Shown piece by piece: positions 4,180-36,330 of a stretch of 64,000 bases of DNA (its first letter is position 1; each line of letters opens with the position of its first letter). The translations under genes and the position numbers were made by a program. Under the pieces are notes generated by a model. It did no database searches. It worked only from the letters and a program-made list of their open reading frames with translations, and had not been told where the DNA came from. The DNA lies in contig NC_088302.1 of assembly GCF_032854445.1 (NCBI RefSeq), positions 23,821,788 through 23,885,787 on the forward strand. The letters are read 5' to 3'. Source of the stretch: Liolophura sinensis. Lineage: Eukaryota; Mollusca; Polyplacophora; Chitonida; Chitonidae.

Positions 4180-4617
4180 TCAGCGGAACGGTGCTGGGTG
4201 TTTGACCACTTTGCGGTACTCCTGGATGTGATTTTTCTGTTTGGCGCTGGATGGCTGTGCTTTGGGTTTGCCGCTGTACAGACGCGAGACGACAGACTGT
4301 GGGGTGACGTGACGGTGTGGGGGGCGGTGTGCAGTGAGGACAGTGCCAACTGAGCCCTTATAGTTAAGGTTGTGCGTTTGTACTTTAGCAGTGGCCGTAA
4401 TGGGAGCAGACTTCCTGGAGGGACTCAGCCTGCTCTGTGGCTTCCTTACCCGTCGATGTAACAGTTTATCGCTTTTCTCCGTCTCCTTGTTCTTATCGGC
4501 ATCACCATTTTCGTTGTCTTCCTTCGCTTTGGTTTGAACCTTAGGTTTTGGTCCCAGCAAACCTTTGGCAGCAGCTCGTTCTAAAACATCTTTAGCAGAT
4601 TCCTGGTACTCTTCAGG
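4180..4617 (-). CDS. NSUN7: NSUN7 exon 9, C-terminal basic tail and stop
   Basis: Acceptor TATGTTACAG|CCTG. It encodes PEEYQESAKDVLERAAAKGLLGP, which matches the conserved (S)VKDVLARAAAKGLL block after the core in vertebrate NSUN7. A 120-residue Lys/Arg/Ser/Pro-rich disordered tail follows, ending HPAPFR and TGA at 4180-4182. The tail is rich in SRL, RKS and KAQP patches, like nuclear RNA-binding tails. Confidence 0.88.
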   Translation of the reverse strand, partial: PEEYQESAKDVLERAAAKGLLGPKPKVQTKAKEDNENGDADKNKETEKSDKLLHRRVRKPQSRLSPSRKSAPITATAKVQTHNLNYKGSVGTVLTAHRPPHRHVTPQSVVSRLYSGKPKAQPSSAKQKNHIQEYRKVVKHPAPFR

Positions 4618-7600
4618 CTGTAACATAGCAACACATGTGTGTAGATGTATGTATGTGAGCAGGATCACGTGAAAAAGATGTGGAGGCCTAACAACCTTGA
4701 AAAAATAGGCCAAGGTCACTGAAAAACAATAACTTATTAATTAAAGTTGTTATCCAACAGTGTTGCCGGAGTCTTCTACCACTTCTGATAGCCTGACAAA
4801 TCGACAAATGTCTTGACAATAGGAAAAAACACAAAAAAGAAATGGACAAGAATATACTGGATTTGAGCTCTAGACGGCCAGGCATTATTTGCAATTGACT
4901 AAGCACTGAAGACTAGCATAGAGAATAGGCCGCTTTGATCTTCTGCTAACAGAAAAGACAGAAAGATTACATTGTTGCAAAATTGATACCTGAGAGAAAA
5001 AGGCAGAAAGAATACATTCCCAAGGTAAACTGATGTGAATGGTTTCATGCAGTGTAGGACGAAGTTCCCATGTTATTTACATAGGACTGTTTTTTTTCAA
5101 ATTTTTATTGTTTTTTTGGTCATACCATGAAAACAACACAAAGTACAAAAATAATTCTTGCAAATTTGTAATTGTGACATCAAGGGGCACCAGATAGTGT
5201 GTTTGTTTAATGATTTTAAGCAGTTTTAAACACTGACATACTTTTGAGCCAAGTTCATTAGTCAGTGTAGGCCTTATTTGCATACCAAATTAAAAGTTTT
5301 TTTACAATATGGGAAGGGTGATTCATCTAAAAACTGTAAATGAAAAGTTCATCTCAATAGTTTTAGCCATTTTGGAGAAGAAGATTTTCTTAGCTTATCG
5401 ATAAATTCAAAATGGCCGCTAAAAATCATGTGACTGGTAAAACAACACAAGATGTCAAAAAGTTGCTTTATATGTTCCTCATTAAAACTCCAAAGTTTGG
5501 TTTTTCTACCTTTACCAGTTTTCGAGATATTGCAATTTTACGAGTTGACTAAGAAGAAGAATAATAAACAATATGCGACTAGGTATACATGTAATGTAAG
5601 TCTGGTAAGTCTGGCTACAAGATAGAGGGTTTACATACAAATAGATATACTGATATACAGACTGACACCAAGTGCAACAACAATACCTCTAGACCAATCT
5701 TAGCAGAGTTGTAAAAACACCTTCCTGTTGTAAAGATGAGTTACATCCCTGTATTAGTCTTACCTCTCTTGTTATGAGGGCCACAAAGCAGCCGTTGGAT
5801 TTGTCGGATGGGGCCACCTTAATGAATTTACCATTAAGAAGCTTCCCACTGTCAATGTCCTCTCCGCTTAAAGGCAACACAGGGGGCGCAACTCTGTAAG
5901 GAACTTTACGCAGAAGAGCTGTGTTTGCATACTCAATGGCTTTCTCTACAGCGGCCTCGTTCTCCACGGCGTTGACAGAGCGGGTGCAGTAAACAATGGC
6001 TTGCACTTTCGACACTATCACCAAAAGAAACTCCCAGAAATTAGTCCATGATAAAATTGAAATATAAAAAAGATATTAGTACTGAACTTCAGAACAGACA
6101 ACCATGGACCATAAATAATTCTAGAGGAACTTCACATCATGCTTCGATCCATAGTTTCGTATAATATTGCCCTAATCTGGTTAGCTACAGGATTACTCAC
6201 TCTACCAAGACATATATCAATTTGTTCAAAAAAATAAAACATAAAATTCTGATAAAAATCACAAGAAAAACATAACAAAAAAAACTATATCTGCATGAAA
6301 TACCTTTCCTAATTCTTTTAGGATTCTTTTCATGGCATCAAATGCTGTCAAAACTGTGCATCATAAGAGTTTTTACAAATATACAGTTTTTCTACAAATT
6401 TATGTCCAGATCTGAATAAAATGTAGTGTGTGACGTAGCACAAAAAAACAAATCTGGCATTTGATTAAAAAATCTGTTTTAGGGCCAATGTCATGGGCAA
6501 ATTACTCTATACATTATCCATTTTGTCCATAAAGCCTGATTTATAAAATATAAACATTTGATTGCACACAATTCAATAAACTAAATATAAAAAAACATTA
6601 CCGAAGGTATTTACAGATACAGTTTTAAATTTAATGGTCTTTCCAATAATGCTTACTTTATTTTCAACTTTCCCTTCCTTTATTAAAGTACGAACAAATC
6701 GATATCCTGTTTCCCTCATGTAAGTATCAATTTATTTTTAACATAAAGCATACAGACTCACTTCTCATGGCATGTTTGAGGAGAGCTCCCTGAGTGGCTA
6801 TTAACTTTGCCAGTTTACTATGGTCAGCTTCTCCTATAGACAGGTCCTTCAGTATAGTCATATCTGTAAAGTAAAAGTAGAGGACAATGGAACCTGGCAC
6901 AGTCTGGTTACTTATCACCAATGTCTTGTTTAGATCAATGATCAATCAACAATCAAAACCACACTGCATATCTGGCAAATTATAATTAGGGCACTAGAAT
7001 TCATACATATGTATTTGTCTGATTGATGTTTTACGCCATCCTCAAGAATTTTCTCCTCTTATGACGACAGCCACCATTATGGTTGGAGGAAACAGAGCAG
7101 ACCCTGCAGGTTGCTGGCACACCTTTCCGCGTACGACTGGAGAGGAAGTCAGCATGTGCTGGACTTTAATTGACAATGAGGAGGGACACTGGCGAGAGGC
7201 TCCTGGGTCATTCTGCCGGGCTAGCGTGCTAGCCACAGCAAGCAGATATTTAACACAGGTGACAAGAATTAGTAGTATAAACAACTTAAATATCACGAAA
7301 GTTAACACACATGGCTAGACTAGTATTGTGGACTGCTTAAGACTGTCATCTACAAATATTGAAGGCAGGGGAATACAAAAATTTCCAGTCCAAAGCCGGG
7401 ATTGAACCCACACCTTGAGTCCTTGAAACTGAAATACAAGCACCTTAAAGAGCACATAAACAATGTGATAAAGTCATGGGCCATTCAAAGTTCCGTGCAA
7501 AGCTGTACCCAACACTGTTTTCATTTACTTTTTTTGTGTTTCTTATGCGCTATAAAAAGGATTTAAAGTAGGCTAAAAGAATGTGACCTTTTCAAACCAC

Positions 7601-10600
7601 ATCCAAGTGACTGTACATCACAGTAGTCATAAGAATATCCCTTGTTTGGTTATGGGATAGTGGTTACAAAATAATATGAAAAACCTTTGGAAAACATAGT
7701 CTCCAAAACTCACCTAGGAAAATAATTTATTTTTCTAGATGTAAAAAAATGTTAAAAATAATCTGAAATACTTCTAGACATAGTTCACTTTTCATTTGAG
7801 GCACACATTCTTTTTGTCTTTATGTACACCTTAACCACTTGGTCACAGCATGCTCCCCCATCAATTATTCCACATTGAATGTCTCTCACCTTCTCCCTCA
7901 CTGACGACAAAGTCCACCGGATTACTGACCCCAGACTTGCTACACTCTGCCGATAACAGCACCACCTTGGCGTTCCTCAGGCGGATATCATCAGGGGAGG
8001 TGTCCAGGAATCGATCAGGTATGATCTTAACATCTGAGACCCCTTAAGGAAATTAACACCATCCACTGATTGATTTGGTTGGCCCTTTGATTGGGTACAC
8101 AAGAATTTTTTGCTTTTATGATAGTGGTCAGGTTTGTTTGTGGTGGAAAGTGGACTGTCTTAAGAAAACCATCGCCCTTTTGCCAGGTACATTAAAAGCC
8201 GAACTTAAAGCCACAGCTGATTCAGGATAAGCTATATATAACATGCGAACAACAACATTCTATGATTTCAATGTCAAAATGTATATACATGTATAATTAT
8301 GAAAAATGACAATGTTGTTAACACTGTTTGAAAACCTGAAAACCAAAATCTGACAAATGTTCGCCCATGTGACATCTAGATTCTCACCTGCTGAGTGGGT
8401 TCCATGTGTTTGCTGTGTGTATATTTGTGGAGGGCAAATAATTTCCAATAAACTACACGTGGAACAATATATACAGCCACTGTGGATAGTTTATGGCCAC
8501 TCAGGCTCAAAGAACAATGAAACCATGGGAATTTTAAAAAAAATTGAAAAAAAATTCCCTATCCAAGGCTTGGAATGAACCAACACCTGTTATATTCAAA
8601 TGATTCAAAGATGAGCATCTTAACCTTAACGACTCGTCACCTAATTCATAATTCATACTTTCTTTCATTTATAATTGTTGAGCGTGGTAAATTAATCCAA
8701 CTGTGTGTTAAGTCACAGCAGTTTTAGCACCTGAAATAATAAAAATGAAAGGTCTTTATAGACCACCTGCCGCTTACACACATCAATCATTCTGAGTGTA
8801 ACAACTGACAAGGTAGATCAATAAGGCCCAGGTAAATCAATGAGGTAGCCATAACGAGTTTGAAGCAGGTGTAAATTAATCTGTCCAACACATGTATAAA
8901 CCATGAGATAGGTAAACAAGCCATACAATATGAGAATTGCGCTGGTTTATTTCAGCTCATTTATCCCAGTCCAGACGGTTCAAGCGTTTTAATGCCGATA
9001 AAAAAAAAGCTGCCTGGATTAATAGCTGTCTGCACGCAGACGAAGGCAGAGAGGAAGGAAAATTATACTGTGGCAGATTTCCATAACAGGTTTACGTAAC
9101 AGTAAATTATACAATTTTCAAGCATAAAGTGATGAGTGAAGCCCCCTATACCCCCCTATAAGTATATGTGATAGTACATCCTTTTTGATAGTACATCATT
9201 GAACATACGTACCAATTCTCAGGAAGTCGAACCATTCCCGAGTAGCATGAAATGACACTGTGTACCATGACACTGTGTAAGTTATCTGTCAAAACAGGCT
9301 GATTTAACAGGTACAGCTCACAACAGAACACAGGGGTATGATTAAGCGACAGACTTATGTACACGCCAATTTTGTAAAATTTGAGATTTATTTATTTATT
9401 TGATTGGTGTTTTATGGCATAAAAGAATATTTCACTCATATGATAACGGCCAGCATTATAGTGGGAGGAACCCACGATCACAGGTTGCTTGCAGACCTTC
9501 CCACATATGGCCAGAGAGGAAGCCAGCACGATCAAGTTGGACTTGAACTGACAGTGCTTGCATTGGTGGGAGGCTTCTGGGTCATTTCACCGCACTGGCG
9601 TGCTAACCCTCTCGGCCACGGAGGCCCCTAAAATTTGAGAAAAAAAATAGACTATGACAATACCCAATGCTAATATGTAAGCTAAATTTGGCCTAAAATT
9701 AAAGCGCACTTTAATTAAGTGGCAAGTAATATCATATTATATTACTTTTTATGCTGATACATTTTTCCAGTAAGATATCCTCACCTTTCTGAGACCCAAA
9801 AAACTGTCAGAATAAGGTAAAATGAGTACTGTAAATTTTCAACCTTTTCCACCACCAAAGCACTGTTTTCAGTGAAACAAAATTATTGTTGAAATCAAGC
9901 CACAAATTGCATGTAATTAAAAATACAAGCTGTATAACTCTGTGCAAATTATTTCTCTACACACTATAGTTCTCTAAGAATGTTTCAAAATACTAGTTGC
10001 ACGAGCTTTTAAAAGAATTAAGGAGAAGAAAACTTAAATTACAAACAAATACCATTTAAAAGAGTATGCATTTCCTTGCAGGTGCATGTCGTTAACAAAA
10101 TTCTAATATGTACCTCAAGATGATAAATTATAAATAAAGTCAGCGCCAAAATCCGCTGTGGGGGACTCCATTTTGCCTAAGGACTAGTCCTGAAGTCTTC
10201 TGTGTTAGGAGGAGAATTTTCATCAGAAACCTTCGAAGTGCAGTTCGTACATTTCCGGGAGAACTCTTCTTCCCAGATGGTAGCGAACAGTACAGTTCGT
10301 TTTCCGCTTGACAGTCGGGAAACCAGAATGTTGGACGTAGGTTCCGAGTTTACAAATGAACATGCCGGCAGTTTTAATGACTCTCATTTTTTAACGACAC
10401 GGCCCCCAGCATACATTACAGGGTGTTAAAAGATGGAGGACAAGATGGACTCAGCGATTTATGCCAGCTTTGCCGTTTTCAGACTTTACGCGTATGGTGT
10501 GGAAAAATCACAAAATTTTGCAGCAGACACCACCAGATAGAAAAAAATGTGCTCTTTTCAGCCCTTAGTGTCATGGTTTTAAGTTTTCTTCTCCTTTAAG

Positions 10601-13600
10601 ATAATTTAGTTTACATATACAGTCATAGGAAATACAGGTATTATAGAGAATCAATATAAAGGATACTTTTCACTTTGAGGTTGTCAAACAGATTTTTGAT
10701 GTGCTCTATTTCCTGTTCGGTCTGAGACTGGGCAAATGCCCAGATGTGGTTGGAGCGTCGGCCTAGGAGACTGGACAGGTGAGCTGTGGTTGCCCCTGAC
10801 CCTATGTTAACATGGATCACATCGTCTGTGTCGTTAAGTAGATACCTCACAGTGTGCGGGCCATAGCAGCTAGATTTATCCTGCAATTTAAGTAATAATA
10901 ATAGCACTGGAAATAGAATGTGACAACAATGAAATTTTGAAAACCTAATTACCAGATTAATTTGCCCTGATTCACTCATAAATGCACATGTACATATTCT
11001 ACGATTTAGTCTTCAAATCGTAGAATATTTTTAGTATTCTACGAGCTTTCAAGATAATGACCATGTAAAGGACATGCTTGTCATCTGATGTAGTATACTA
11101 CTATACATGTATGCTATTGATGTAATCAATAGTAATATATGTCCACAAATTTTGAGAAAAAAACCCAATAAAACAGTAATGTAAACACAATGTACAATTG
11201 GCCAGTTTCATCAAGTGGATTTCTGTACTTTTTTACTTGGCATTTGACAGTCAAGGCGGTATGTAAATGAAAAAGTTGTAGTGTCTGTGTTGTGTATTTT
11301 CTCCATCAAACACATTTTATTGGGGTTATAATTAAATGTTACTTGGCAATTTTGCAGGCACTATATACCAGGTAAATAGAATTCAAATAATGTGAGGTTC
11401 TTGGATCTGTGAGGTTTTGGTGAGGTTGTGGGTGAAGATGTCCTCCCTGGCCTCATGGGAGAAAATGAGGACATCATCACAGTGGGGGTTCTTACCTGGA
11501 GCACAAGAGAGCTCAATTTGGTGAGGTTGTGGGTGAAGATGTCCTCCCTGGCCTCATGGGAGAAGGTGAGGACATCATCACAGTAGGGGTCCTTACCTGG
11601 AGCACAAGACAGCCATCTTTGGTGAGGTTGTGGGTGAAGATGTCCCCCCCCCCCCCGCCCGGCCGCGAAGGAGAGAGTGAGGACGTCATCACAGTGGGAG
11701 TCCTTACCTGGGGTCCTTACCTGGAGCACAAGACAGCCCTCTTTGGTGAGGTTGTGGGTGAAGATGTCCTCCCTGGCCTCATGGGAGAAGGTGAGGACAT
11801 CATCACAGTAGGGGTCCTTACCTGGAGCACAAGACAGCCTTTGGTGAGGTTGTGGGTGAAGATGTCCTCCCTGGCCTCATGGGAGAAGGTGAGGACATCA
11901 TCACAGTAGGGGTCCTTACCTGGAGCACAAGACAGCCCTCTTTGGTGAGGTTGTGGGTGAAGATGTCCTCCCTGGCCTCATGGGAGAAGGTGAGGACATC
12001 ATCACAGTAGGGGTCCTTACCTGGAGCACAAGACAGCCTTTGGTGAGGTTGTGGGTGAAGATGTCCTCCCTGGCCTCATGGGAGAAGGTGAGGACATCAT
12101 CACAGTAGGGGTCCTTACCTGGAGCACAAGACAGCCCTCTTTGGTGAGGTTGTGGGTGAAGATGTCCTCTCTGGCCTCATGGGAGAAGGTGAGGACATCA
12201 TTGCAGTGGGGGTCTACACAAAACATCTGTCCTGTCAACTCTTGGTTAGGGGCAACTTTAATGAAGCCGTCCCGACAAAGCTCCTCAACTACAGACTCCA
12301 CACTGTAAGTACAAACAGGTAAGTATTAGGAAGATATGACCATTGTTACTCCTCTCTTTTTTATTGATGCTTTATGTTGAGGAACAAACCTGCCAATTGC
12401 TAAATCAGTGGCTCTCACTGAATAATTATAAGATAATAAAGGTTATTAAAATTCCCTATAAAAAATTTTCTTCAAAAATTCCCAATCCTATCAGAAAAAA
12501 ATGGTAGGTCAGTAGAGATTTATTTTTTTTACTCTAGCTAATGAAAATGAAGTTAAAGAAATTAACATTGGAAAAAAAAATGTGCATGAAAATTATTATA
12601 GAGCTATAGAGTAAGGCCATGTTTTGGAGGGTCAGTCGCCGTATGCACTATGAATATATTTTTGATGATTGCCTCAACAAAACATTTGTGGAATTGTCCT
12701 TACCTGGATTTGGCCTGGTTCACCCATAAGTATGCAGGTATGTTAGACTTAGTCTCGGTCTCCCTCACAGCAGCAGGCAACAGATGGTCAATGGAGATCA
12801 CCTTGTGCTTGATACGGTTTCTCGCCATCGACGCATTCAGTTTGACAGCACAGGATAAGATGGCCTCCTCAATTGCCTGAATGTCTGGCTCTAACTTCTC
12901 ACCGGGTAACGGTGTGCGAGGCTGAAACTTTCGTGTCTGAAAGTCATGAAGTACCACCATCACGTCCGACTCCTCGTCTCGATGCTACAATATAAATGCA
13001 AGAAGACTTTGGCTCATGGATTCATCAACAAGAGCCATTTCTACCCAATTCTTACCAGTACAAATCACCTAAGATCATCATAAAGGTACGTGGACAACCA
13101 CTGTGACTATACATATTACACAACTATATGCACAGTACATTATGTTAAGCTACACATGTATTTAAGGGCACACTCAAACCCTATTGTTCCCTTGATACAT
13201 AGCATACCTGATTATACAGATGGCACACCTGATTATAATGATGGCACACCTGATTGTACAGGTAGTGCACTTGTCTGTATTGGTAGTATATCTGATTGTA
13301 CAGGTAGTGCACTTGTCTGTATTGGCAGTAAACGTGATTATACAGGTAGTGCACCTGTCTGTATTGGCAATATACCTGATTGCACAGGTAGTGCACCTGT
13401 CTGCATTGGCAGCACACCTGATTGTACAGGAAGAACATTTGTATCATACATTGATATTGTGTTTCTTTACTATAGAACAAAAGCACACGCTCTTTACACT
13501 GTTGTACAAAGATGACATTTATTTTAAAACTTTTGTGCCGAAAAATAGAACTGTCTAAAGTAAATGCAACTTTGAAATTCTCACCTCAGGGAAATGAGCA

Positions 13601-16600
13601 AAAAATGAGACATCGGATAACATTTGATCCAAAAGATTTTGATCTGAAAAGAGAAAAAAAGAAATTAAGGAGGGTTAAGAGGGTCTACTGGCTTGTAATA
13701 CACATATCTGTAAAGGTTTACACAGTCCAAAATAAAATGTGTGTAATAAGTAACTCTAATCATTCTGAAGATCCACACAAGGCCTATTTTATATTTGTTT
13801 ATTTATACTCAAGAATATTTGACTTATATGACAGATTATGGTGGGAGAGAACCGGGCAGAGTCCGGGGGAACCCACAACCATCCTCAGGTGGCTGACAGA
13901 CCTTCCTACATACGGCCACAGAGGAAGCCAGCATGAGCTGGACTTGAACTCAATGCGTCCACATTGAAGAAAGGCTCCCTGGTCCTTGCGCTGCGCTGGC
14001 ACACTAACCTCCTCAGCCCCACCTATTTTATATGACAAATCTGTAATCAACTAACCTCAGGGTTTACAAGTGTTGAGAATATGATACTGACAAAGCCAAA
14101 CTGGTTTCAAACAGTACAACAAGGACTTGTATGTGCTTTCGAAAAATTTTTAAAATTTAATAAAGAAAAGTAAATGTGTTTCTCAATAGATTGATTATCA
14201 ACTACTATTTTGTTTGTAATGTCTCTATGAATTCAACCCATCAAATGTCAGCAAAACTGTCGAGTGTTGAGAGAAAGATAAACGCAGCCAACTGTGATCC
14301 CTTTCTTCCATTATTTGTATGGATGTCAACTAAAAATGAGGTTAACAATTATAGAACGTACTTATAACACCAATTTACAATGCATCTCATACATGTACAT
14401 AGACTGCAGAGGCCTCTGTGGTTCAGTTGGTTAGCACACTAGCGCAGCGTAATGACCCAGGAGTCTCTCACCAATGCGGTTGCTGTGAGTTCAAGTCCAG
14501 CTCATGCTGGCTTCCTCTCCGCCCTTACGTGGGAAGGTCTGCCAGCAACCTGTGGAGGGTCGTGGGTTTGTCCAGGCTCTGCCTGGTTTCTTCCCACCAT
14601 AATGCTGGCAGTTGTCGTATAAGTGAAATATTCTTGAGTATGGCATAAAACACTAATCAGATAAATAAATAAATACATGAGCTGTAATGTTCCATGCATA
14701 TGGTCTGGCTAAACAGAGAAAAATACTCTGAAGTATAAAACCTGCAAAAAAGTTATTATTATTATTATTATTAGTTAGCATTATCAAGTCAAACATCAGC
14801 TGCTTACATTCTTTTCTTTCAGGTTGAAGGTGACTCTATAACATGGATGCCACACCTAGTAAAAGTACATGTATGTACATGTAACTTTGCTCATGGAGTA
14901 AAGGATTTTCATCATCTGCATGTACATGCAATTTATTTGATTGGTATTTAATGCCATACTCACAAATTTTCAGAGTTTTCTATAGAAGCTAATGATTAGA
15001 TGAACCCAGATGAGACTAAAGCGCCCAGATTAAAGACACAGCGGCAACCAAAGCAGCAAGAGATGGATTTGAACCTCATCAATCAAGGACTTGAGAGCCA
15101 AACCGAGCCAGCGCTTTTAACCATTACACAAGCCAACTAGTGAGGGCATTTCAGATATGGATTTATGGACCTTCTCTTAGTCAACATGTGCTGGGTTAAG
15201 TGGGAGTAAATTCTTTCTTAAAAACAGAAATATACATGTACATGACAGCCAATGTGAATTCTGATAATAATATGTTCAGTTTTCAAGTGCAGTGAGTGAA
15301 TGATAGATCGTGATGCAATTCTGAAATTTCAGAATCTACACATGCGACTACTGTAAATGCCTTTTTATTGGCGTGGTACTAACATTCGCAGATTTCGCTG
15401 CAAACACATTTCTGCGAAAATAAGTACCATCGAATACAAAACCCATGTAAATAATTTCTTAATGTAGAATGCGTTACAGTTATAAATTCGCTAACAAGCA
15501 CTACAGTTCTAATACTTTTTCAAACACGTTAATTAGAAATACCTAATTAGAATGTATTCCGGCTTTCACAAATCCAGCTTAACTGATCGTCAGTTAAGCT
15601 TGCTTTCTTTCAAGGAGGCTTAGCTCCATCTAAGTATCGCCACATTGAGACGTTGTTGATTTATTGCCGCGGTTAGAGACATACAAATCGATAATTTGTA
15701 CTGGGCGTGTGTACATCGCTTGGGGTTTTCCACACTTCAAACTTCCTTTTCAATATGATGATTTCTGAGAAATTTACTCAAATCTGTCACAGCTCACTAA
15801 AAGTTTCACTCATACTGCTGATGCATGAGAATTAAACAGTGTGATTTATTTATATCAAATTTAATTCTTCGTCGTCTCCCGGAGTGAGTGACACGAATAT
15901 TTGCTTTTATATAGATTAACAGTCTTCAAAAGATTAAAAGCTTAGGAGGATTAACTTCCTTTGTCTGATCAAGTTACTGTATTGTATAGAATTTTTGTCA
16001 CATCTCACAGGTACAAACAAGTTTAAATGATAATACTGTTACTTGAATGCTTGAGTTGTTTTATTATTTGATGTTTCTGTGTTGAAGTTTGATTTTGTTT
16101 ATCAGTTGTCCAAAAATTCTGTAAAAATCCGCGAAAGTTGATTCCCGCAAATGTGTCTTCTTACCAAATCTGCGAAAGTTTATGCCCGCGAATAAAAAGG
16201 CATTTACAGTATTTCAATAAGCTACAGTACAGTATTTATACATGTATACTTAAAATAAAATATTATTCATTTGGGCTGATAACTGTGTACCTTGAGACAC
16301 CAAACAAATAGTCTGGATACAAGATATATACATGTATTTACTGACCCATGAATATAAAGTTCTCCATCACACATGTACTGTAATTCTTCAACCGTCTCGC
16401 ATATTTGCAAGGTGTTTCTTCAAGCTTATTCTGAAGGCATTATTCTGAGGTTCATTGGTAAAATTACGCTTTTTGTGAAGCCCTGAAACTGGCCAATCCA
16501 ACCGATATACATGTAATTTTTGTCTCCAAAATCAACTTTAAAATGTGTATAAATTGCACTGAAAGTTGTTCTTTTATACGCAAAAAGGTTGAGGAATTAG

Positions 16601-18109
16601 GGTACCCTATTTCTTCCAAAATTTAGGACGCCTGATCTGCTCATTTTAGCCAATATGTATGTAATTCTAGCAGGAATATTGAGTTCCTTTTTTTCTCACA
16701 TGGTTAGACCATCTAATGAACAACATACTCATATCTTTACTTTTCCACAAGGCTGGTAAAGGGCTGTAATATTCTACTTTCTACTAATATCTGTCCCAAA
16801 TTTTAGAAGAGTTAGGTTAATATGTAACGATCGCTTGGTATCATCTCTGTGAGATACTAAAATACATGTATATGAACTCCTAGCTGCAGGCGTTATTTAT
16901 TCACCCTATGTAAAGGGCAACTGGACATGTCTGGATTTAATGACTTACCTGTACATGTATGAAGCCTACATGTACTTGTAGTGAATATTTAATTTCTGTA
17001 TACATGTAAGCAAAATGATGCCACGTCTGCTGGTCGCATACGGTGGACAATCAGTAAGAAAAAAAAAAACATTTCTGGAGTAAAAATGCTACAAGGTGAG
17101 ATATACATGTATGCACATATTGTATACATGTGCATATCTAGGTCAGGAAACACATGTAAATGTACATTATGTGGAAGAGATATATGTAAATGCTGCGATT
17201 AACATCTATTTTAATACCAGATAGATGTACAAGCTAAAGAATCACAAATCTGATATTTTAACACTCAAGGTCAAGACTACCATAAATTGGGAATTTTTGT
17301 TTCTTTAATGAAAAACTTAAGAATTTTTCACTTACATGTTTATGATGATGGTCATTTAAATGTATGGGAAAAACCAGAACACCCTGGATAAACCACTGCA
17401 CTTTGGCAAGTAACTGACAAACTTTCCCATATGTGACGTAAATACGTATATCACCTTGGTGAAAGACAAGTGGTCTTCAACAAACCGCACACTGTGTAAC
17501 ATTGTGCAATCAGCCAATTGACCGCTTAATGTCAGCATACACTGAGTGCTAAAAGCAGGAATTTCCCAATTTACCCCGCACCCCGTGTCGTGGCAATTAA
17601 AAATCAACCACCCGTAATCACCATATACTACGGTCTACTCCCTAGCCACACAATAAACTTGTACAGTATATTTACTCACATTTCAAGGCACTAAAAGCCA
17701 ACTCGAATGCTAGTCTTTTTTCTTTTGCATTCTCAAAGTCAATATGAGGTATTTCTGGAGGCTTGTCGTTCTTTTGTTCTTCTCGTTTTCGCTTCAGGTA
17801 AGGGTTATCGTCTTCTTTCTCATGTTTCAAAGCGTTGAAAATGACAGCAGCATGCTTGAAGATTTTGTGCGAATACAGACATGGCTCTTTTTTGAAAAAC
17901 TCCATCCTGAATTTGGCTTCATTTTCTTTTAGGTTCTTTAAAGAGGTGCTCATCTTGAGCGGGCGACCAGTTGGCCTTCCTAAGTGACCGGTTGACTTAA
18001 GACTTGCGGCGTCATCCATGTCTCTATTAGTCAGGTAGGAATTCTGACCGCTCTCTGTACTCTGTGGGGTCCTGGAATGGTAATTCATCGTCTCAACTGT
18101 GGGCGCCAT
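4180..18109 (-). CDS. NSUN7: NSUN7-like RNA m5C methyltransferase homologue, 9 coding exons, 700 aa
   Basis: Nine exons (minus strand, 5' to 3'): 17680-18109, 13585-13643, 12704-12984, 12119-12302, 10667-10880, 7890-8033, 6762-6863, 5764-6014, 4180-4617. All introns are GT-AG, all phases join, and the total is 2103 nt including the stop. The length (700 aa) is close to vertebrate NSUN7 (about 718 from memory). Family landmarks in order: RLAFELAFSALKY before intron 1; VMVVLHDFQTRKF in exon 3; a degenerate SAM-binding motif I (VNIGSGATTAH, about 342-352); the motif IV cysteine C420 in AECSKSGVSNPV; motif VI at 480-484 reading YCTRS; a basic tail beginning SAKDVLERAAAKGLL. NSUN proteins are nuclear, mitochondrial or cytosolic RNA cytosine-5 methyltransferases; mammalian NSUN7 is linked to sperm motility and enhancer RNA. 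Motif VI normally has TCS, so catalysis here is doubtful. The family call is firm; activity is inference. Confidence 0.93.
5764..6014 (-). CDS. NSUN7: NSUN7 exon 8, motif VI with Cys replaced by Arg
   Basis: Acceptor TTTTGGTGATAG|TG and donor AGAGAG|GTAAGA. It encodes MSKVQAIVYCTRSVNAVENEAAV, then a region ending NGCFVALITRE, which is the last core strand of the methyltransferase fold. The family signature here is (Y)xTCSVxPxENE; this copy has TRS (R483, codon CGC), one base from TGC. C481 lies two residues upstream and could be a sequence-level remnant, but it is not the normal nucleophile position. No stops or frameshifts are seen. Confidence 0.9.
6762..6863 (-). CDS. NSUN7: NSUN7 exon 7 (residues 438-472)
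   Basis: Acceptor TACTTTACAG|AT and donor AGAA|GTGAGT. It encodes DMTILKDLSIGEADHSKLAKLIATQGALLKHAMR as two pieces either side of GEADHS. The second piece is the helix (L-A-x-x-Q-x-x-L-x-H-A-M) that precedes motif VI in NSUN proteins. The exon is 102 nt and phase 1 at both ends. Confidence 0.88.
7016..7245 (-). mobile_element. SINE (tRNA head, Nin-like core) in NSUN7 intron 6
   Basis: Minus-orientation copy. It runs from the 3' core (GATTGATGTTTTACGCCATC) to the tRNA-like head (CGGGCTAGCGTGCTAGCC). Diverged by small changes; no clear target duplication seen. Confidence 0.8.
7318..7470 (-). mobile_element. tRNA-like SINE remnant, third type
   Basis: On the minus strand GTGTGGGTTCAATCCCGGCT carries a good box B (GGTTCAATCCC). 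The flank is diverged. Similar box B words occur at about 8565-8590, 15060-15075 and 27188-27205 (minus) and at 21552-21566 (plus). Function is only inferred. Confidence 0.4.
7890..8033 (-). CDS. NSUN7: NSUN7 exon 6, motif IV cysteine
   Basis: Acceptor GGGGTCTCAG|AT and donor GAAG|GTGAGA. It encodes NVKIIPDRFLDTSPDDIR, then VVLLSAECSKSGVSNPVDF. C420 is the motif IV cysteine (PCSG in active family members), which normally helps release the methylated RNA. The usual Pro before it is Glu and the Gly after Ser is Lys, so the loop is altered. The exon is in phase 1 on both sides. Confidence 0.9.
9383..9629 (-). mobile_element. SINE, near full length, NSUN7 intron 5
   Basis: Minus orientation. It begins with the (TTTA)n tail complement and TTGATTGGTGTTTTATGGC, and ends TCGGCCACGGAGGCCCC, which is the complement of the tRNA-like 5' head. 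Box B-like sequence (GTTCAAGTCC) is read on the minus strand around 9538. Confidence 0.85.
10018..10600. mobile_element. 583-bp inverted-repeat element in NSUN7 intron 5
   Basis: TTAAGGAGAAGAAAACTTAA at 10018 is the inverse of TTAAGTTTTCTTCTCCTTTAA at about 10579-10599. The interior has an open frame of 75 codons (10202-10429) that resembles nothing I know. A related TTAAAGGAGAA word occurs at about 30119. It is probably a non-autonomous DNA transposon. Confidence 0.65.
10667..10880 (-). CDS. NSUN7: NSUN7 exon 5, degenerate SAM-binding motif I
   Basis: Acceptor TTAAATTGCAG|GATAAA and donor AAAA|GTATCC. It encodes DKSSCYGPHTV... then VIHVNIGSGATTAHLSSLLG, which occupies the position of the Rossmann-fold SAM loop. 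Active NSUN enzymes usually have D-x-C-A-A-P-G-G-K-T there. Here the loop keeps G345 and G347 but lacks the Asp, Pro and Lys. Alternative donor GTGAAA six bases earlier would not join in frame as well as this one. Confidence 0.88.
11400..12210 (-). repeat. exon-derived 97-101 bp tandem array carrying splice donors
   Basis: About eight head-to-tail copies. The one at the high-coordinate end is the 3' half of NSUN7 exon 4 and the other seven lie at the start of intron 4. Each unit holds the DVLTFSHEAREDIFTHNLTK coding stretch, the LVLQ end and a CAG|GTAAG donor. The donor words lie near 12117, 12015, 11915, 11817, 11715, 11702, 11592 and 11491. Units are 101 bp or 97 bp (a 4-bp loss in the AAAGAGGGC stretch). 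One copy (about 11622-11743) has a poly-C/GC-rich patch and a local duplication giving two donors 13 bp apart. Confidence 0.93.
12119..12302 (-). CDS. NSUN7: NSUN7 exon 4, 3' half is the parent of an intronic tandem array
   Basis: Acceptor TACTTACAG|T and donor CTCCAG|GTAAGG. It encodes SVESVVEELCRDGFIKVAPNQ... followed by DPHCNDVLTFSHEAREDIF and ending GCLVLQ, the pre-core NSUN7 region. Its last ~90 nt are repeated seven more times downstream in intron 4 (see 11400-12118), so identical splice donors follow the authentic one. Only the first donor keeps the frame into exon 5 (DKSSCYGPH); reading through meets an in-frame TAA at 12017-12019. Confidence 0.9.
12704..12984 (-). CDS. NSUN7: NSUN7 exon 3 (residues 164-257)
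   Basis: Acceptor ATTGTAG|CATCG and donor CCAG|GTAAGG. It encodes the VMVVLHDFQTRKFQPR block typical of NSUN7, then an alpha-helical region ending AYLWVNQAKS. The last part corresponds to the 'R-V-N' RNA-recognition strand before the methyltransferase core in NSUN proteins. It ends in phase 2 and shares a Ser codon with exon 4. Confidence 0.9.
13203..13435. repeat. 42-bp minisatellite in NSUN7 intron 2
   Basis: Repeats of ACCTGATTGTACAGGTAGTG followed by CACCTGTCTGTATTGGCAGT, about five full copies preceded by shorter ACCTGATTATA units. The period is a multiple of three, which explains long open frames (VVHLSVLAVY-type) on both strands. It is not a gene. Confidence 0.85.
13585..13643 (-). 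CDS. NSUN7: NSUN7 exon 2 (59 nt micro-exon)
   Basis: This small exon lies between the acceptor TTCTCTTTTCAG and the donor GAG|GTGAGA. It encodes the end of a Tyr codon plus QNLLDQMLSDVSFFAHFPE (residues 145-163). The exon is needed to bridge exon 1 (ALKY) to exon 3 (HRDEESDVMVV), and it restores the ALKYQ-(D/N)-(I/L)L pattern I recall from vertebrate NSUN7. The phases (1 in, 0 out) fit both neighbours exactly. Confidence 0.88.
13797..14022 (-). mobile_element. SINE, minus copy, NSUN7 intron 1
   Basis: It contains TACTCAAGAATATTTGACTT, the GGTGGGAGAGAACCGGGCAG segment and the head complement GCGCTGCGCTGGCACACTAAC. It sits about 390 bp from a plus-strand copy at 14408, making an inverted SINE pair in one intron. 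Confidence 0.82.
14408..14675 (+). mobile_element. SINE, full-length plus copy, NSUN7 intron 1
   Basis: Head GAGGCCTCTGTGGTTCAGTT with box A-like GGTTCAGTTGGTTAGC and box B-like GAGTTCAAGTCC. The core then runs ATAAGTGAAATATTCTTGAG... and the tail is (AAAT)n. It is antisense to NSUN7. Confidence 0.88.
15349..16211. mobile_element. 863-bp inverted-repeat DNA element (MITE-like) in NSUN7 intron 1
   Basis: The left end TACTGTAAATGCCTTTTTAT is mirrored by the right end ...ATAAAAAGGCATTTACAGTA. Imperfect inverted homology continues inward (TTCGCAGATTT and CGCAAA blocks). There is no transposase frame inside, so it is non-autonomous. A TA dinucleotide at both ends suggests a TA target duplication (inference). 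Confidence 0.75.
16376..16603 (+). mobile_element. MITE family A, copy in NSUN7 intron 1
   Basis: Begins ACTGTAATTCTTCAACC and ends GGTTGAGGAATTAGGG, giving about 18-bp inverted ends, with a non-coding 228-bp body. The body shares GGTGTTTCTTCAAGC.. and GTGAAGCCCTGAAACTGGCC with the copies at 1346 and 56730. It abuts MITE family B directly. Confidence 0.75.
16604..16817 (+). mobile_element. MITE family B, copy in NSUN7 intron 1
   Basis: About 214 bp. The left end CCCTATTTCTTCCAAAATTT is inverted at the right end (CCCAAATTTTAGAAGAGTTAGG). The interior (GACGCCTGATCTGCTCATTTTA...) matches the reverse complement of 1748-1963. No coding capacity is seen. Confidence 0.75.
17680..18109 (-). CDS. NSUN7: NSUN7 exon 1 (start codon, residues 1-143)
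   Basis: The ATG at 18109 is the first in-frame ATG after a TAG at about 18164-18166. It has purines at -3 and +4 (G and G). The residues run MAPTVETMNYH..., a low-complexity polar leader, then FKHAAVIFNALKHEKEDDNPYL and, at the exon end, RLAFELAFSALK, the segment conserved in NSUN7. The donor T|GTGAGT leaves phase 1, and the Tyr codon is completed by exon 2. An open frame reaches 18163 but only with a TTG start. A 5' non-coding exon further upstream cannot be excluded. Confidence 0.88.
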
Positions 18110-27707: not shown

Positions 27708-28856
27708 AGAGTTTCGGGGATTCAATCATGCGTCAAAATATAACACTCTTTGGCACAGACATGCATGAGATGGTGTGAGCACCCACTGCGTCAATTAAAG
27801 CCAAAATACGTCTCTCATGGAAGTCGTCAGCCGCCGGATGACGTCATCAGGAATTCTGTTCCACTCCTCAAATAAAGCCTGTTCAAGCTGTTGCCTGTTT
27901 TGTGGGGGAGGGACGCGTTGTCTCAGATGTCGATCAAGATGATCCCACAGATGCTCCAAGGGATTCAAGTCTGGCGATCGTGCTGGCCAAGGCAGTACGT
28001 TGACATCAACGGTGTCCAGATAATTTAGTACAACTCTGGCGGCATGAGGTCGTGCATTGTCCTGCTGCAAAAGGATACCCCTTTGCTGTTGATGCACGAA
28101 TGGCACTACAACAGGTTCCAATATTTCATCTCGGTATCTTTGGCCAGTTAGATTTCCCTGGATGATGACCAATCTCATTCTCACCTGTCCACAAACTCCG
28201 CCTCATACAAGCACCCCTTCAGCACCAAAAATGCAGTTTTGTGCCAATCGCTCTCCCATGCATCGATACACACGAATTCGACCATCATTTGTGAAGAGGT
28301 TATATCGGCTTTCATCAGTGAACAGCACCCTTTCCCAGTCTCGTCGCTGCCATCGACGTACAACTCTTGCCCAACGCAGCCTGTTTTGACGGTGTAGAGG
28401 AGTCAATGCCATTCCACGGAAGGGGCGAAAGGCTCTGATACCACTCACGCGGAGTCGTCGTAAGACTGTGCGTCTGCTGATGGGGTGTCCCAGTGCCGTT
28501 TCCACCGTTGACGTCGCCGTCACAAACCGGTTACGCAGGTGGATTGTGCGGATGTACCGGTCTTCGCCAGGCGTTGTAACACTTGGCCTGCCCGATCTTG
28601 GACGATCTTGTGTCCTGCCTGTTAGGCGGTAACGACCCAACAGTCTGCTGATGGTGGCTTGACTGCAATTGAATGTTCTGGCAATGTGGTGTTGGCTGGC
28701 CCCCATGTCGGCCATACCAGTGGCTCTATCACGTTCTGCTTGTGTGAGTCTTGGCATCTCTTAGATGTTTTTTATGGTATTGCACCCTTACCATGTGCTA
28801 CATCGGTATTTATACGGCGGTCATTATCAAGAATTTTCAACAGGGCCCGAAACTCT
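27708..28856 (-). mobile_element. Tc1/mariner-type DNA transposon (about 1.15 kb)
   Basis: A transposase gene occupies most of the element. An 11-bp inverted repeat, AGAGTTTCGGG at 27708-27718 and its complement at 28846-28856, flanks it at the size expected for Tc1/mariner (about 1.1-1.3 kb). TA lies next to the left repeat but not clearly at the right, so the ends may be eroded. Confidence 0.75.
27795..28757 (-). pseudogene. Tc1-family DD34E transposase with one in-frame TGA
   Basis: A 320-codon frame starts MPRLTQAERDRATGM and ends TSMRDVFWL. Residues 1-110 hold paired helix-turn-helix DNA-binding segments (QHHIARTFNCSQATISRLL) with an RPRSGRPS basic linker at about 53-60. The catalytic acidic residues are D148 (LFTDES), D233 (QDNARPH) and E268 (SPDLNPLEHLWD). 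The D233-E268 spacing has 34 residues between, the DD34E signature. The only break is TGA at 28203-28205 (codon 185), where a Trp is common in the family before GGV. No frameshifts are seen. The protein would cut and paste the element via its terminal repeats. The stop suggests a recently inactivated copy. Confidence 0.9.
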
Positions 28857-31479: not shown

Positions 31480-33064
31480 AGCAAACTACCAAGCCTGGGC
31501 ACCAGAGCAAAAATTGTCTACTTGTGACATTTGCAAACTTCGACATCCTACTGTCCTCCATAACAAAACCAGGGAACGTCCAGAGAGCCAACCGAAAAAG
31601 AGGGTGGAGACTGATATAACTTTGCTAAGAATATTGTAGAGAAATGCGAGGGCCAGTGTTGGACAATGCACGATGACCATTATACCAGTACAAGTGAAAC
31701 TGAAAACGCCACATACCAAGAAACAAATATCTTTCGTACTGGGACCATTTGAGGGGCATTGACTTGCCAGAGATTGATGCTGATCGATTTACTTCTTGGA
31801 AACAACGTAGCCGGTGCCTATATGCCGTACGAGATAAAGACAGGTCCAAACAATGCTTGGATGGCTTATATAGAATTTAATCCGGGACGTCAAAGGAATG
31901 GACAAAGGTTCCACTTTCACTGTGAATAAGGCGGAAATTACAGCAGTGGAAGAGGTGGAACAACTCGAGAGAGTGAACAGACTAGTAAGAAACCCAGTTG
32001 ATCTTGATTTCCCGCTGAGGCTTTCTGGGGACAAAAGAGAGCATTCGCAAGAAGACATTCGCAAGAAGAAAGGAATGCTTTCTTTCACCAGCTCAGTGTA
32101 CCCCTTGGGAACGGCTGCTCCTTTTGTATCGGAAGCAAAGATCCTCCTCTAAAGTGTATGTAGACAGAACATTGGATGGGACGAACAGCTGACGAAGGAC
32201 CTTAGCGCCTGGCGTCAGTGGCTTCGGTGTTTCTGAGACGCCAGTGGCGTGGGGTACGGCTTGCTGTTGCCTGCCTACGTATTGTCGACGAGAATAATGG
32301 AGCCAGCACAATATTCGTCGTTGGAAAAGCAAAGGTAGACCCGCTCAAGAAGGTGACAGCTCTACGGATGGAGTTAACTGCGGCGACCGTTGCGGTAAAA
32401 CTTTAGAAAAAAATTCCTAAAAACAGAAATGGGCTCCAACATTAACACTGTAGACAGGCAGCATGTCGAGGTTAAAGTACATGGCCAACCAAGTATCAAG
32501 GTTTCAAACCTTTGTCGCATATCGCCTTGCCATCGTTCGCGATTCCTCTGAACTACACCAACTGAGATATGTTGATACGAAGTCCAACCCTGCTGACCGC
32601 GCCTCAGAAACTACTATAACTACAGTTGAACAAGGTAGCTACCTGGATACATCTAGCAAAAGAAAACCACAAAAGACGTGTTACGGTTCGGAAGAAGATT
32701 CATCATGATTTAGGACAGCTGGAACTTTACCCAAAACTAACAAACAGAATAAATGAAACGCTTTTTGCTCGTGCGAGAGACACAACAAAAACAGAAATTA
32801 CCGTAGATATACTGGAGCGAACAGAAAAGGCACTGGTTAAGTATGTCCAGCAGAACCACTTCTACGAAGACACCGAAGCGCTCACCAAAGTTAAAGGGCC
32901 TCAAAGCACCTCAACTACAATAAAGAAGTCCTGCGAAAGCTTGACCCGTTCTTGGTTGATGGTCTTATCCGCGTTGGAGAGAGCCTTCGGAGAACAGACA
33001 TCGACTATAATGCCAAAGCATCAGATTTTGTTGCATAATATAAGCGTTATGTCCGACATTCATA
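31480..33064 (+). pseudogene. BEL/Pao pol, first part (RT end, RNase H, integrase N-terminus)
   Basis: Recognisable blocks in shifting frames: HLRGIDLPEIDAD (about 31747) and NNVAGAYMPYEIKTGP (about 31801), both from the protease-to-RT region; SSVYPLGTAAPF (about 32090), the end of the RT palm; IGWDEQLTKDLSAW (about 32172); VVGKAKVDPLKKVTALRMELTAA (about 32320, split here by position, not by gap), which is RNase H-like; YVDTKSNPADRAS (about 32568); and NAKHQILLHN (about 33010), the integrase zinc-finger side. At least four frame changes and several stops. It ends abruptly at SDIHI, where BEL homology resumes 2.2 kb later. Confidence 0.8.
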
Positions 33065-35311
33065 TACCATTCGTAGTCTGTAAAGGGCGTTCCAAGTCGA
33101 TAATCGCAAGATCCATTTCCAAAACAACGTTTAGCACTAACTCTCAAAGACAAAGATATGTAAGAAATTATACAAATAAGAAATAAAGCCGGTAACAGAC
33201 AAGAGAGAAGCGGTCATCAGTTTTCAATGATGCCGGGCAGACAATGAATATTCCAGGCATGAATTCCATATCAAAGTTCAAATTCGTAGCCCCAGGTTAA
33301 GCGGTATTAGATACAGTTTGAAAATGATGAGCGTTACAGACCCAAACCGATCAGACTGTGATTCAAAAGTAACGGACGATTACGTCTTTCCCGTTAATAT
33401 GTAAAGATCTCATGCTACAAGAGGCGTCATCTATGATACTACACGTGACATACAATAGACGGTTACACTGGTGCCATCTATGTTGTTAAATACCATGTAC
33501 GTGATAGATATGTACATAGGGATAAAAGGGCCGTCTGTGTGGTTGATCACAATGCAGATCGCCAGAGATTCTTAACGCTCTGTCCATACCTGCCAACAAG
33601 AGTGTTATACTCATTGTAAAATTTGAGAAACTTAGAATGAAAGCGTTTGATGGAGTATCCTTGACAAACTAGTTTTTGAACTAGCAACTTGTGACACAGA
33701 TTAAAGTCACCACAATTAACGCATGATCTGACAAATGCTACAAGGCGAGATATGTGTACGCCATATGCAGGACCGTTTGGTATATTGCTATCTAAATAAG
33801 GATAATTTACAACATCAAAATTGAAATTATCCCTTTTGTCGTAGAGGCGGCGTGAAAGGAGACCTTGTTCGTCTTTGTACAGATATAGATCCAAATAAGA
33901 TGTACCATCAGGACTATCTGTTGTCTCCTTTTAATCCAATGAAGGCGGATAGATTTCCTTCAGCGCTTCAGCAATATGGGGATTATTTAACGCCAGTAGA
34001 TCATCAATATACCGCTTGGTAAATGAAAAGGATCGAGCTTTAAAGATATTACTTTTAAGTAATTTCTGCATATAGTCGTATTCATATGAAAACATGTATA
34101 GGTCTGCCAAGAGGCGCACAATTGGTACCCATTGGAATACCTATGCACTGTTGGTAAATGGTATCTCCGAATTTCACATAGATGTTATTAATGAGAAATT
34201 CAAGTAATTCAATAAATAGTGTAACATCGCATGAGTGGTAACCTTTATAAAGAGTAGAACTAAAGAAAGCCTTATTGCTTCTGACGTTAATGTAACGATG
34301 ATTGTTTTAGTAAATACCGAGATAATTAACGACGATATTCTTTCAATAAGATCTTTGTGAGGAATCGTAGTATAGAGAGTAGAGAAATACGTCTTTGTAC
34401 GGTATATGCATATGAGCATCGAGTTCTTCTGTAAGACGTTTGGAGTTGTTAAGAATCCACATGCAGTTGACACCTGAATTTTTTGTTATGGCACAACAAT
34501 ACTTATTCCAAAATGACTTTACTTCTTGTAACGCTCTCGTAAGTAGGGCTGAAAAGAGTTTGGTGGTACAGCTTCTTGAACCTGCAATAAATCGAGCCTT
34601 GTAGGGGATTTATGCATTTTAGGAATCCAGTAAAGCTGTGGTATTTCTGTGTGACGGGTAGGTATATTTATGCGCCTTTCTTCAAGAAAGGTTTTGTGTT
34701 TGTTAAATAGTTCCTCCAAAGTACATGTAGTAGCTGAATGCGTGGATGTCGTTGTAGATGCACATAGCTCTTGAACAAGAATTTGATAATAATAATTCTT
34801 GAAAATAAAGATGACATTATTAGGAGCCTTGTCTGCTACAGTGATGACAAATTTACTATGAAGGTCAGCGAGTGTTTCTTGCACAGTGGGATCCTTCAGA
34901 ACCTGTTTAACTTTAGGTAGAGCATCAGTGTCTAGACGGTGTATAGTTAAACTAACTTTCTTTTTGACAATCTCAAGCCAATCGTTAAGTACCGAAGAAT
35001 CCACTTTCTCCCGTTTTGACCATTTTTTAACATACTCCTCAAGTGCCGAGATGATACTTTTTTTGTTTGATCGAATGTTGACATTTCTCTTTTCTCTATA
35101 CTTAGGGCCCCTCACAAAGAGATTCCTTAGATCATGATTCTTAATAATATTAAGGTCACCAGTCAGGACATGTTTACATTTGTCGTAGGTTAAAACTGAG
35201 GATTCACAATCACAGTTACAGCCGCCAGAAGTATACGTCGCCAAATCGAACTCCTTGATGGCCTGTATAAATATAAGCGTCAAGTCCGACACTCCAGTCT
35301 CGAAGTTTATC
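33065..35311 (-). pseudogene. Penelope-like reverse transcriptase element, antisense and nested in BEL
   Basis: Minus-strand open pieces in N-to-C order: 35311-34519, 34473-34174, 34119-33931 and 33894-33547. Motifs: PQLYWIPKMHKSPTR (about 34620), STLYTTIPHKDLIERI (RT motif A region, about 34340-34390), GIPMGTNCAPL (about 34105-34137), RYIDD (catalytic YxDD, about 34000-34014), and YDKRDNFNFDVVNYPYL (about 33800-33860). The pieces are separated by single-base frameshifts, for example after NCAPL. No GIY-YIG endonuclease could be recognised. The family call rests on the RT motifs; a related RT type is possible. Clearly inactive. Confidence 0.65.
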
Positions 35312-36330
35312 ATTTTCGAAACACACAAGGCAGTTGGATATCTTGGCAAAATTGCCGTCCTCGCAAGACTTCGCCAGTTACTGGATCATAGGAGTTTAGT
35401 CTCCAAATGTGTAACTTGTAAAAGACACCAGCCTCTTGCCTTGCAACAGATGATGGCAGACATGCCGTAGGACACAACCCCATTTTACGTATGTTGGAAT
35501 GGACTTTTTCGGTCCGTTTGAAGTGAAGAGAGGGCGGGGTATCATCAAGAGATATGGCGTCAAGATCACGTGTTTGACAAGTAGAGCTGTTTATCTCGAA
35601 CGGGATAACACACTCGAAACAGATTCCTGTATTAACGCCATACAGAGGCTGATTGCTCGCAGATGAAATTCATAATTCACAACGGGACAAAGCTGGTAGG
35701 TGCAAAGCAAGAAATGAGAGAACCACTGCGAACCTGGAACAAGCAGAAAATTCACGGTGATATGCTTCTTAAAGGGATTGAACTGAATTTCAACGCTCCA
35801 AAAGCGTTGCCATTCGGCGGAGTTTGAAAACAGAATGTCAACAGAATGTCAACAGAATGTCAACAGAATGTCCAACCTCAACGACGAGTCTCTGCAAATT
35901 TTGCTCTGTGAAGTGGGAGCCATATTAAATGGTCGTCATATCAGTGAACGTCCCAACAGTGTACACGCTCTAGATGTTCTCACACCTAACCACCTGCTAC
36001 TTCTCAGATCGGGGGACAGATTGCCATCAGGACTTGAGCTGTGCAGAGCAAAGAAGCAAATTCAGTATCTTTTGCAAAAGATGGAGACGAGAGTATATGC
36101 CTCTTCTGCAGGGAAGACAGAAGTGGAACAGGTCCAGGAACAACATTAGCAACGGAGATATTGGTCTCATCGTGAATTCTACTCCAAGAAATTCATGGCA
36201 CTCGGGATAGTAATTGAGGTCATCAGGGACAACAAATAGCTTGTCGTAGCAGCAAAACTGAAACGCAAGTCATCTACGTTAATTCGCCCAGTGGCGAAGT
36301 TATGTTCCATTCTCGAACATGACAACTGAT
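35312..36330 (+). pseudogene. BEL/Pao pol, second part (integrase core and DUF5641-like tail)
   Basis: It resumes at THKAVGYLGKIAVLARLRQ (about 35320), then SKCVTCKRHQPLA, VGMDFFGPFEV (about 35493, containing the first catalytic Asp of the DDE integrase), NDESLQILLCEVGAILNGR (about 35879), LTPNHLLLLRSG (about 35985) and RWRREYMPLLQGRQKW (about 36080). The last two are typical of the DUF5641 tail of BEL/Pao integrases. Multiple frameshifts; an AACAGAATGTC unit is repeated at about 35830-35870. Confidence 0.82.

Follow-up and report, generated by a model that had tools for sequence, protein, structure and literature searches.

A probable mirage-type minisatellite with repeated splice donors in an NSUN5/7-like gene of the chiton Liolophura sinensis

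The host gene and the array in intron 4

When an exon end and its splice donor are followed in the intron by seven further copies, which donor serves the exon, and is such an array a regulatory device or a by-product of mutation? How the spliceosome decides between donors of the same sequence is usually investigated in artificial constructs. Here, the question is raised by a natural locus within a 64,000 nt stretch of the L. sinensis genome (C8:23,821,788-23,885,787), referred to as the window, in which all positions below are numbered unless a scaffold is named.

The gene model lies on the minus strand (4180..18109) and comprises nine exons (18109-17680, 13643-13585, 12984-12704, 12302-12119, 10880-10667, 8033-7890, 6863-6762, 6014-5764, and 4617-4180), which join into an open frame of 700 amino acids plus stop; the exon boundaries were placed by reading, and exon 2 is the best candidate of a scan. 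A preliminary description of the locus had named the gene NSUN7. This label, rather than NSUN5, is presumptive, and the gene is called NSUN5/7-like here. From exon 3 on (12704..12984, minus strand, as placed in the rebuilt gene model), the product matches NSUN5_fdxn-like (2e-9) and Methyltr_RsmB-F (5.6e-7) in Pfam and NSUN5 (2b9e, 5.4e-15) in a PDB search. Exon 4 (12119..12302, minus strand, 184 nt), the parent of the repeat, is entered in phase 2 through the acceptor TTACAG/TGTGG, is left in phase 0 through the donor CTCCAG/GTAAGG, and is in frame with exons 3 and 5. Exon 5 (10667..10880, minus strand) begins with DKSSC, and intron 4 is 1238 nt long by the model coordinates.

Other repeats and reading frames are present in the window. 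Intron 2 of the gene contains a 21/42-bp minisatellite with CAGGT words in its units (13202-13430), and the program-made list has open reading frames at 27795-28760 and 32000-36200, which we take to resemble a Tc1-type transposase and pieces of retroelements.

On the minus strand, exon 4 is followed by seven further copies of its last ~94 nt, a length taken from the unit alignment, the automatic estimate of 32 nt having been shortened by a 3-nt indel. Tandem Repeats Finder places the array at 11416-12214 with a period of 101 and a score of 1185, and gives a score of 982 to a 199-bp dimer within it; these scores are far above chance and rule out a chance similarity of the units. Eight minus-strand donors were mapped (G of GT at 12118, the true exon end, and at 12020, 11919, 11821, 11720, 11707, 11596, and 11495), of which seven read CAG/GTAAGG and the last CAG/GTAAGA. 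The claim of the preliminary description that the end of exon 4 and its CAG/GTAAG donor are copied seven more times in intron 4 is therefore borne out by the repeat score, the donor map, and the alignment. The copies are not all complete, however, since the donor at 11707 derives from a partial unit of 13 nt and the seventh extra copy is without a terminal CAG/GT.

From donor 1, the units measure 98, 101, 98, 101, 13, 111, and 101 bp, followed by the partial eighth copy; of the sizes first reported, 101 bp is correct, 97 bp should be 98 bp, and the 13-nt and 111-bp units are additional. All lie on the minus strand, and AG/GTAAG ends each of u1 to u7. Unit u1 (12021..12118, 98 bp) starts at donor 1 and differs from exon 4 at 4 of 91 aligned positions. 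Unit u2 (11920..12020, 101 bp) starts at donor 2 and contains the TAA (12019-12017) that had been predicted, correctly, to lie in frame on read-through from exon 4. Units u3 (11822..11919, 98 bp) and u4 (11721..11821, 101 bp) have the sequences of u1 and u2, respectively. The 13-nt fragment u5 (11708..11720), GTAAGGACCCCAG, supplies the extra donor at 11707, and u6 (11597..11707, 111 bp) carries a G-rich insert. Unit u7 (11496..11596, 101 bp) is placed by the donor positions and the unit alignment, and the partial u8 (11411..11495, lower edge ~11411) carries the last donor and ends without CAG/GT. At the aligned bases the inner units u1-u4 are identical and exon 4, u6, u7, and u8 differ, the array thus having homogenised inner units and diverged edges. 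The run of G inside u6 (C on the plus strand, 11640-11660) may not be reliable in its exact length, sequencing uncertainty being possible there. A 199-base probe from the array, searched against the whole assembly (632 contigs, 609,464,459 bases), gave four matches, all within the array, so that in this one haplotype the sequence occurs in one place.

The donors are not equivalent for the reading frame. With contiguous donor use, the full frame into exon 5 is obtained from donor 1 only (one of the eight cases computed); from each of donors 2 to 8 the frame ends prematurely, at a stop lying 680-1235 nt short of the last exon junction (7/7). When any subset of units may be retained, 4 of the 128 subsets leave the full frame intact, namely that with no unit kept, u6, u5+u7, and u5+u6+u7. 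The last three would insert extra coding sequence, an in-frame insertion of 37 codons in the case of u6 kept alone. The earlier statements that the first donor alone keeps the frame, and that every alternative shifts it or adds a stop, consequently hold for contiguous use and fail for these three subsets.

Donor arrays at other exon-like ends

The donor side of the genome was scanned with the word CAGGTAAG; the corresponding pattern for the acceptor side would be TTTTACAG. Counted as matches rather than arrays, so that large arrays weigh heavily, and possibly as lower bounds, three CAGGTAAG occur at least 1617 times with a spacing of 80-110 nt (against 283 with the word reversed and 413 and 319 with two other permutations), at least 1013 times with a spacing of 111-140 nt (294 reversed), and at least 1306 times with a spacing of 55-79 nt (244 reversed). 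Thirty-one distinct arrays on C1 (scaffold 1, 96,433,062 bp) were inspected among the matches listed (80-110 nt to 6.9 Mb; 111-140 nt to 77.1 Mb), 18 lying within the first 7 Mb of the scaffold and 13 further along. The units derive from an exon-like end in 13 of the 31, a call made by eye in a set preselected for CAGGTAAG, which is not a rate for minisatellites in general. Among the matches listed, minisatellites with the donor word are more closely spaced towards the beginning of scaffold 1 (C1:0.5-7 Mb) than deeper into it.

In the first 7 Mb, 4 of the 18 arrays are exon-derived, at ERI2, alpha-L-fucosidase (three paralogous copies, counted once), a tectonin-like gene, and a TRPM-like gene. 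Beyond 7 Mb the count is 9 of 13: L055, L056 (NOX2-like), L057, L067, L068, L069, L071, L073 (TSP1-like), and L074 (MARS1). The remaining 14 of the 18 (L062 doubtful), together with L058, L066, L070, and L072, were counted as not exon-derived; L058 begins beside an exon-like donor, yet its units do not come from the exon.

Support for the parent exons is strong for ERI2 (PDB 7n8v, 4.5e-14), the NOX2-like gene (PDB 3a1f, 5e-22), MARS1 (PDB 5gl7, 5.9e-21), and the tectonin-like gene (Hyd_WA, 2.1e-20). It is modest for the TRPM-like gene (TRPM5, 0.0015), for which a repetitive viral protein with no relation to it ranks first in PDB (4.1e-5, no single stretch passing by itself), and weak for alpha-L-fucosidase (Pfam, 0.0011) and the TSP1-like gene (0.00035), both below the cut-off. 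For L055, L057, L067, L068, L069, and L071, exon status is judged by eye from an open frame and an acceptor-like start; Pfam gave no significant match for any of the six (the L057 peptide, pieced together by eye, contains sequence from a later unit), and a PDB search with the peptides of L055 and L069 gave none for either. The label GMC oxidoreductase for L069 is not used here, the PDB search of its peptide being without a match.

The largest series is at ERI2, with 55 perfect CAGGTAAG in 3.0 kb. In this gene the exon ending at donor 1 and the next exon past the array align together to PDB 7n8v (4.4e-24), gapless at the junction, and the same holds for the NOX2-like gene and PDB 3a1f (3.9e-40); in both, the next exon lies beyond the array and begins after CAG. 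This protein-level evidence points to donor 1 as the ancestral and needed site in these two genes, whatever use may be made of the other donors.

Unit lengths were compared over the 14 exon-derived arrays (13 on C1 and that in the window), with L057 set to 0 mod 3 by eye and with units of other lengths also present in the L068 and fucosidase arrays. The first unit is 2 mod 3 in 10 of the 14 (binomial 0.004, post hoc and for one class of three) and not a multiple of three in 11 of the 14 (binomial 0.26). Selection for units that place TAA in frame was considered and rejected, as five of the ten follow exons read as phase 1 (fucosidase, L063, L067, L068, and L069), where the TAA logic differs, and 11 of 14 reaches only 0.26. 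In L073 (C1:71466200-71467700) and L057 (C1:72020300-72022000) the units are 45 and 60 nt, multiples of three, and by eye the first units show no stop in the frame of the exon; array length could lengthen the protein in these cases.

Splice signals and the fate of the units

Every GT (864) and AG (820) of the gene region was scored with weight matrices of approximate frequencies. All eight array donors fall at the 98.6-99.0th percentile of GTs. Read as acceptors, seven of the eight array junctions (six of the seven extra ones) fall at the 98.9-99.6th percentile of AGs, the exception being 11707, the end of u5 (70.9). The candidate branch point CTCAC lies 24-27 nt upstream of the acceptor-like junctions, and the real acceptor of exon 5 (88.2nd percentile) scores below them. 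Across both strands of the window, 8 of 474 AGGT sites attain both the donor and the acceptor score of donor 1, six of them in the array and the others at 18441 (minus) and 17798 (plus); within the array, the last donor falls short on its donor score and 11707 on its acceptor score. The site at 18441, upstream of exon 1, outscores the array sites both as donor and as acceptor, and is possibly a 5' UTR splice site or a ratchet point.

Most units carry what appear to be the signals that a small intron needs (a strong GTAAG, CTCAC, a pyrimidine tract, and CAG). Splicing of donor 1 to the end of a unit would restore the exon end with its donor, and units taken out in this stepwise way would leave no trace in the mRNA. 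The preliminary description was correct as to the anatomy and to most of the reading-frame argument, but it treated the copies as competing donors only and overlooked the acceptor-like nature of six of the seven extra junctions, through which stepwise removal would be neutral.

The array in the NSUN5/7-like gene is, with good confidence, a minisatellite of the type called 'mirage' in amphioxus and one case of a recurrent process, the productive mRNA being formed from donor 1, either directly or by way of ratchets. A segment across the 3' end of exon 4 and its 5' splice site appears to have been duplicated in tandem into intron 4, for which microhomology between GTAGACCCC in the exon and GTAAGGACC at the donor, as suggested earlier, would be a plausible basis. 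The inner units would later have been homogenised and expanded as the 199-bp dimer. Donor 1 is probably used because, in exon definition from the acceptor of exon 4 (184 nt upstream), the closest complete donor has the advantage; the array in its entirety would then leave with intron 4. Units may also be removed step by step, as splicing from donor 1 to a unit-end AG/GT would leave the final mRNA unchanged. Use of later donors would mostly lead to premature stops and then to nonsense-mediated decay. The same process appears to recur at other exon ends of the chiton genome. In-vitro work on duplicated donors counts against donor 1, since the intron-proximal site, which here would be the last donor, is often favoured.

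That ratchet (recursive) splicing is the main route, with introns of ~100 nt removed stepwise before a final join to exon 5, is rather unlikely. Recursive splicing sites are described for long introns, of tens of kb, and intron 4, at 1238 nt, is far from this length. The combination of a pyrimidine tract with a dual CAG/GTAAG sequence is present (acceptor at 7/8 junctions, donor at 8/8), the dual-site junctions outscore the true acceptor of exon 5, and the seven junctions fitting (Y)nNCAG/GTAAG, with their upstream CTCAC, are near the Drosophila consensus quoted in PMC5126111. Against this, the end of exon 4 may resemble an acceptor by chance (scored as acceptors, the other four AG-ending exon ends of the gene, those of exons 2, 3, 6, and 8, fall at the 90, 77, 17, and 16th percentile), and other exon-derived arrays have poor acceptor-like ends. 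In the NOX2-like array the unit ends are not acceptors (score -5.4 for most units), and in L065, L067, and L071 they are weak; ratchet splicing was therefore rejected as a general rule for such arrays.

It had also been asked whether the array is a copy-number-tunable switch or simply a recent accident, and the accident fits better. In a switch, near-identical donors would compete, array length would set the share of decay isoforms, and less NSUN5/7-like protein would be made. The eight near-identical donors in matching context agree with this, as do the premature stops from all seven contiguous alternatives. The switch is nevertheless improbable, given that the same architecture is found at 13 further places on C1, among them unrelated genes such as MARS1 and ERI2 (55 donors), where frequent misuse should be costly, and that the amphioxus precedents are reported to splice normally (PMC3087553, PMC3902484). 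The array is most likely a mutational by-product, recurrent and mostly tolerated, rather than a purpose-built switch. It would be tolerated because the first donor serves the exon, as it is complete, is transcribed before the others, and has the most favourable position for exon definition; dedicated regulation by the array is possible, though unsupported.

Intron gain in progress, by which units become new introns or cassette exons after the AGGT tandem-duplication model of Rogers, is very improbable. The complete units are bounded by AG/GT, u6 alone or u5+u7 would insert in-frame sequence, and the model was put forward on the basis of amphioxus mirages (PMC3087553); however, all copies lie within the existing intron 4 and the exons join in one open frame, so that no new intron position arises in formerly exonic sequence. 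An error of assembly, in the copy number or in the array itself, is hardly credible, for although the array has a perfect 199-bp dimer and the G run in u6, and one amphioxus mirage is described as aberrantly assembled in a genome draft (PMC3087553), the published statistics give HiFi reads averaging 8,347 bp at 14X (PMC11068029), about ten times the array, so that single reads can span its 0.8 kb, the diverged outer units anchor it, and similar arrays exist elsewhere in the genome.

Significance and relation to known systems

The locus and its counterparts are natural series in which 3 to 55 donors, nearly identical to one another, stand in an exon context that is nearly identical as well, and the first donor is needed for the reading frame in the NSUN5/7-like, ERI2, and NOX2-like genes. 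The wider proposition, that in this chiton minisatellites repeatedly arise from 5' splice sites (with as many as 55 perfect donors at ERI2) and that the spliceosome consistently selects the first donor or ratchets through the series, is put forward tentatively, with rather less than even confidence. If true, the chiton genome would amount to a large experiment of nature in splice-site choice, and mirages would have arisen convergently, and across the genome, outside cephalochordates. Their repeated presence in a mollusc speaks for an origin that is either convergent or general. The general point carries more weight than the one locus: many natural donor series exist, at genes such as MARS1 and ERI2 for which frequent errors would presumably be too costly. 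With the chiton arrays, the choice of donors, recursive splicing, and the origin of minisatellites at splice sites could be put to the test. Searches by title and start of abstract, in open literature with few subscription papers, found no report of exon-boundary arrays in a mollusc, which is weak evidence of absence, and within the open literature, most subscription papers lying outside it, the class was found described under the name 'mirage' in amphioxus only. Work by Canestro from 2002 is cited in connection with the amphioxus mirages.

Repeated donors supplied by a minisatellite are also known in human IFI6 (6-16), reportedly described by Turri in 1995 as having multiple splice donors; its unit is said to be 12 bp and its transcripts to use several donors, whereas the chiton units are ~100 bp and mostly exon sequence. 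In the tandem-duplication model of intron gain by Rogers (ATP2A1; potato RdRp), an AGGT-bearing or boundary-crossing duplication supplies the splice sites, as outlined in PMC4974935; there a new intron arises, whereas the chiton copies sit in an old one. Recursive ratchet points, (Y)nNCAG/GTAAG junctions described for long introns in PMC5126111, are of the same junction type, but the chiton intron measures 1.2 kb and holds six strong sites in addition to donor 1. In human segmental-duplication genes, the structure of exons and introns is changed by the expansion of internal minisatellites according to PMC2812944, in human paralogs and with units of 30 bp on average, as against ~100 bp in the chiton. 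Among molluscs, an intronic 27-bp minisatellite is reported in abalone, with no exon boundary described in the part of PMC6905558 at hand.

The closest likeness is to amphioxus. PMC3087553 describes mirages as minisatellite-like tandem duplications that cross exon-intron boundaries; AG/GT signals occur in many of them, the inner units are homogenised, and the length is unstable. PMC3902484 adds PGBD5 and TnC, and according to these reports normal splicing is left undisturbed by the Adh, TnC, and globin mirages. The array described here shares with these (Adh3, the globins BflGb6/9, TnC, and PGBD5, as far as described there) the boundary-spanning tandem copies, the AG/GT signals, and the homogenised inner units, and an exon end and its donor are repeated across the boundary. 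With these anatomical features present, it is best read as a probable mirage in a mollusc. The chiton arrays differ from those of amphioxus in that most units in the NSUN5/7-like gene are complete intron-like modules, in that the host is a mollusc and not a cephalochordate, and in that such arrays recur at 13 more exon-like ends and reach 55 donors.
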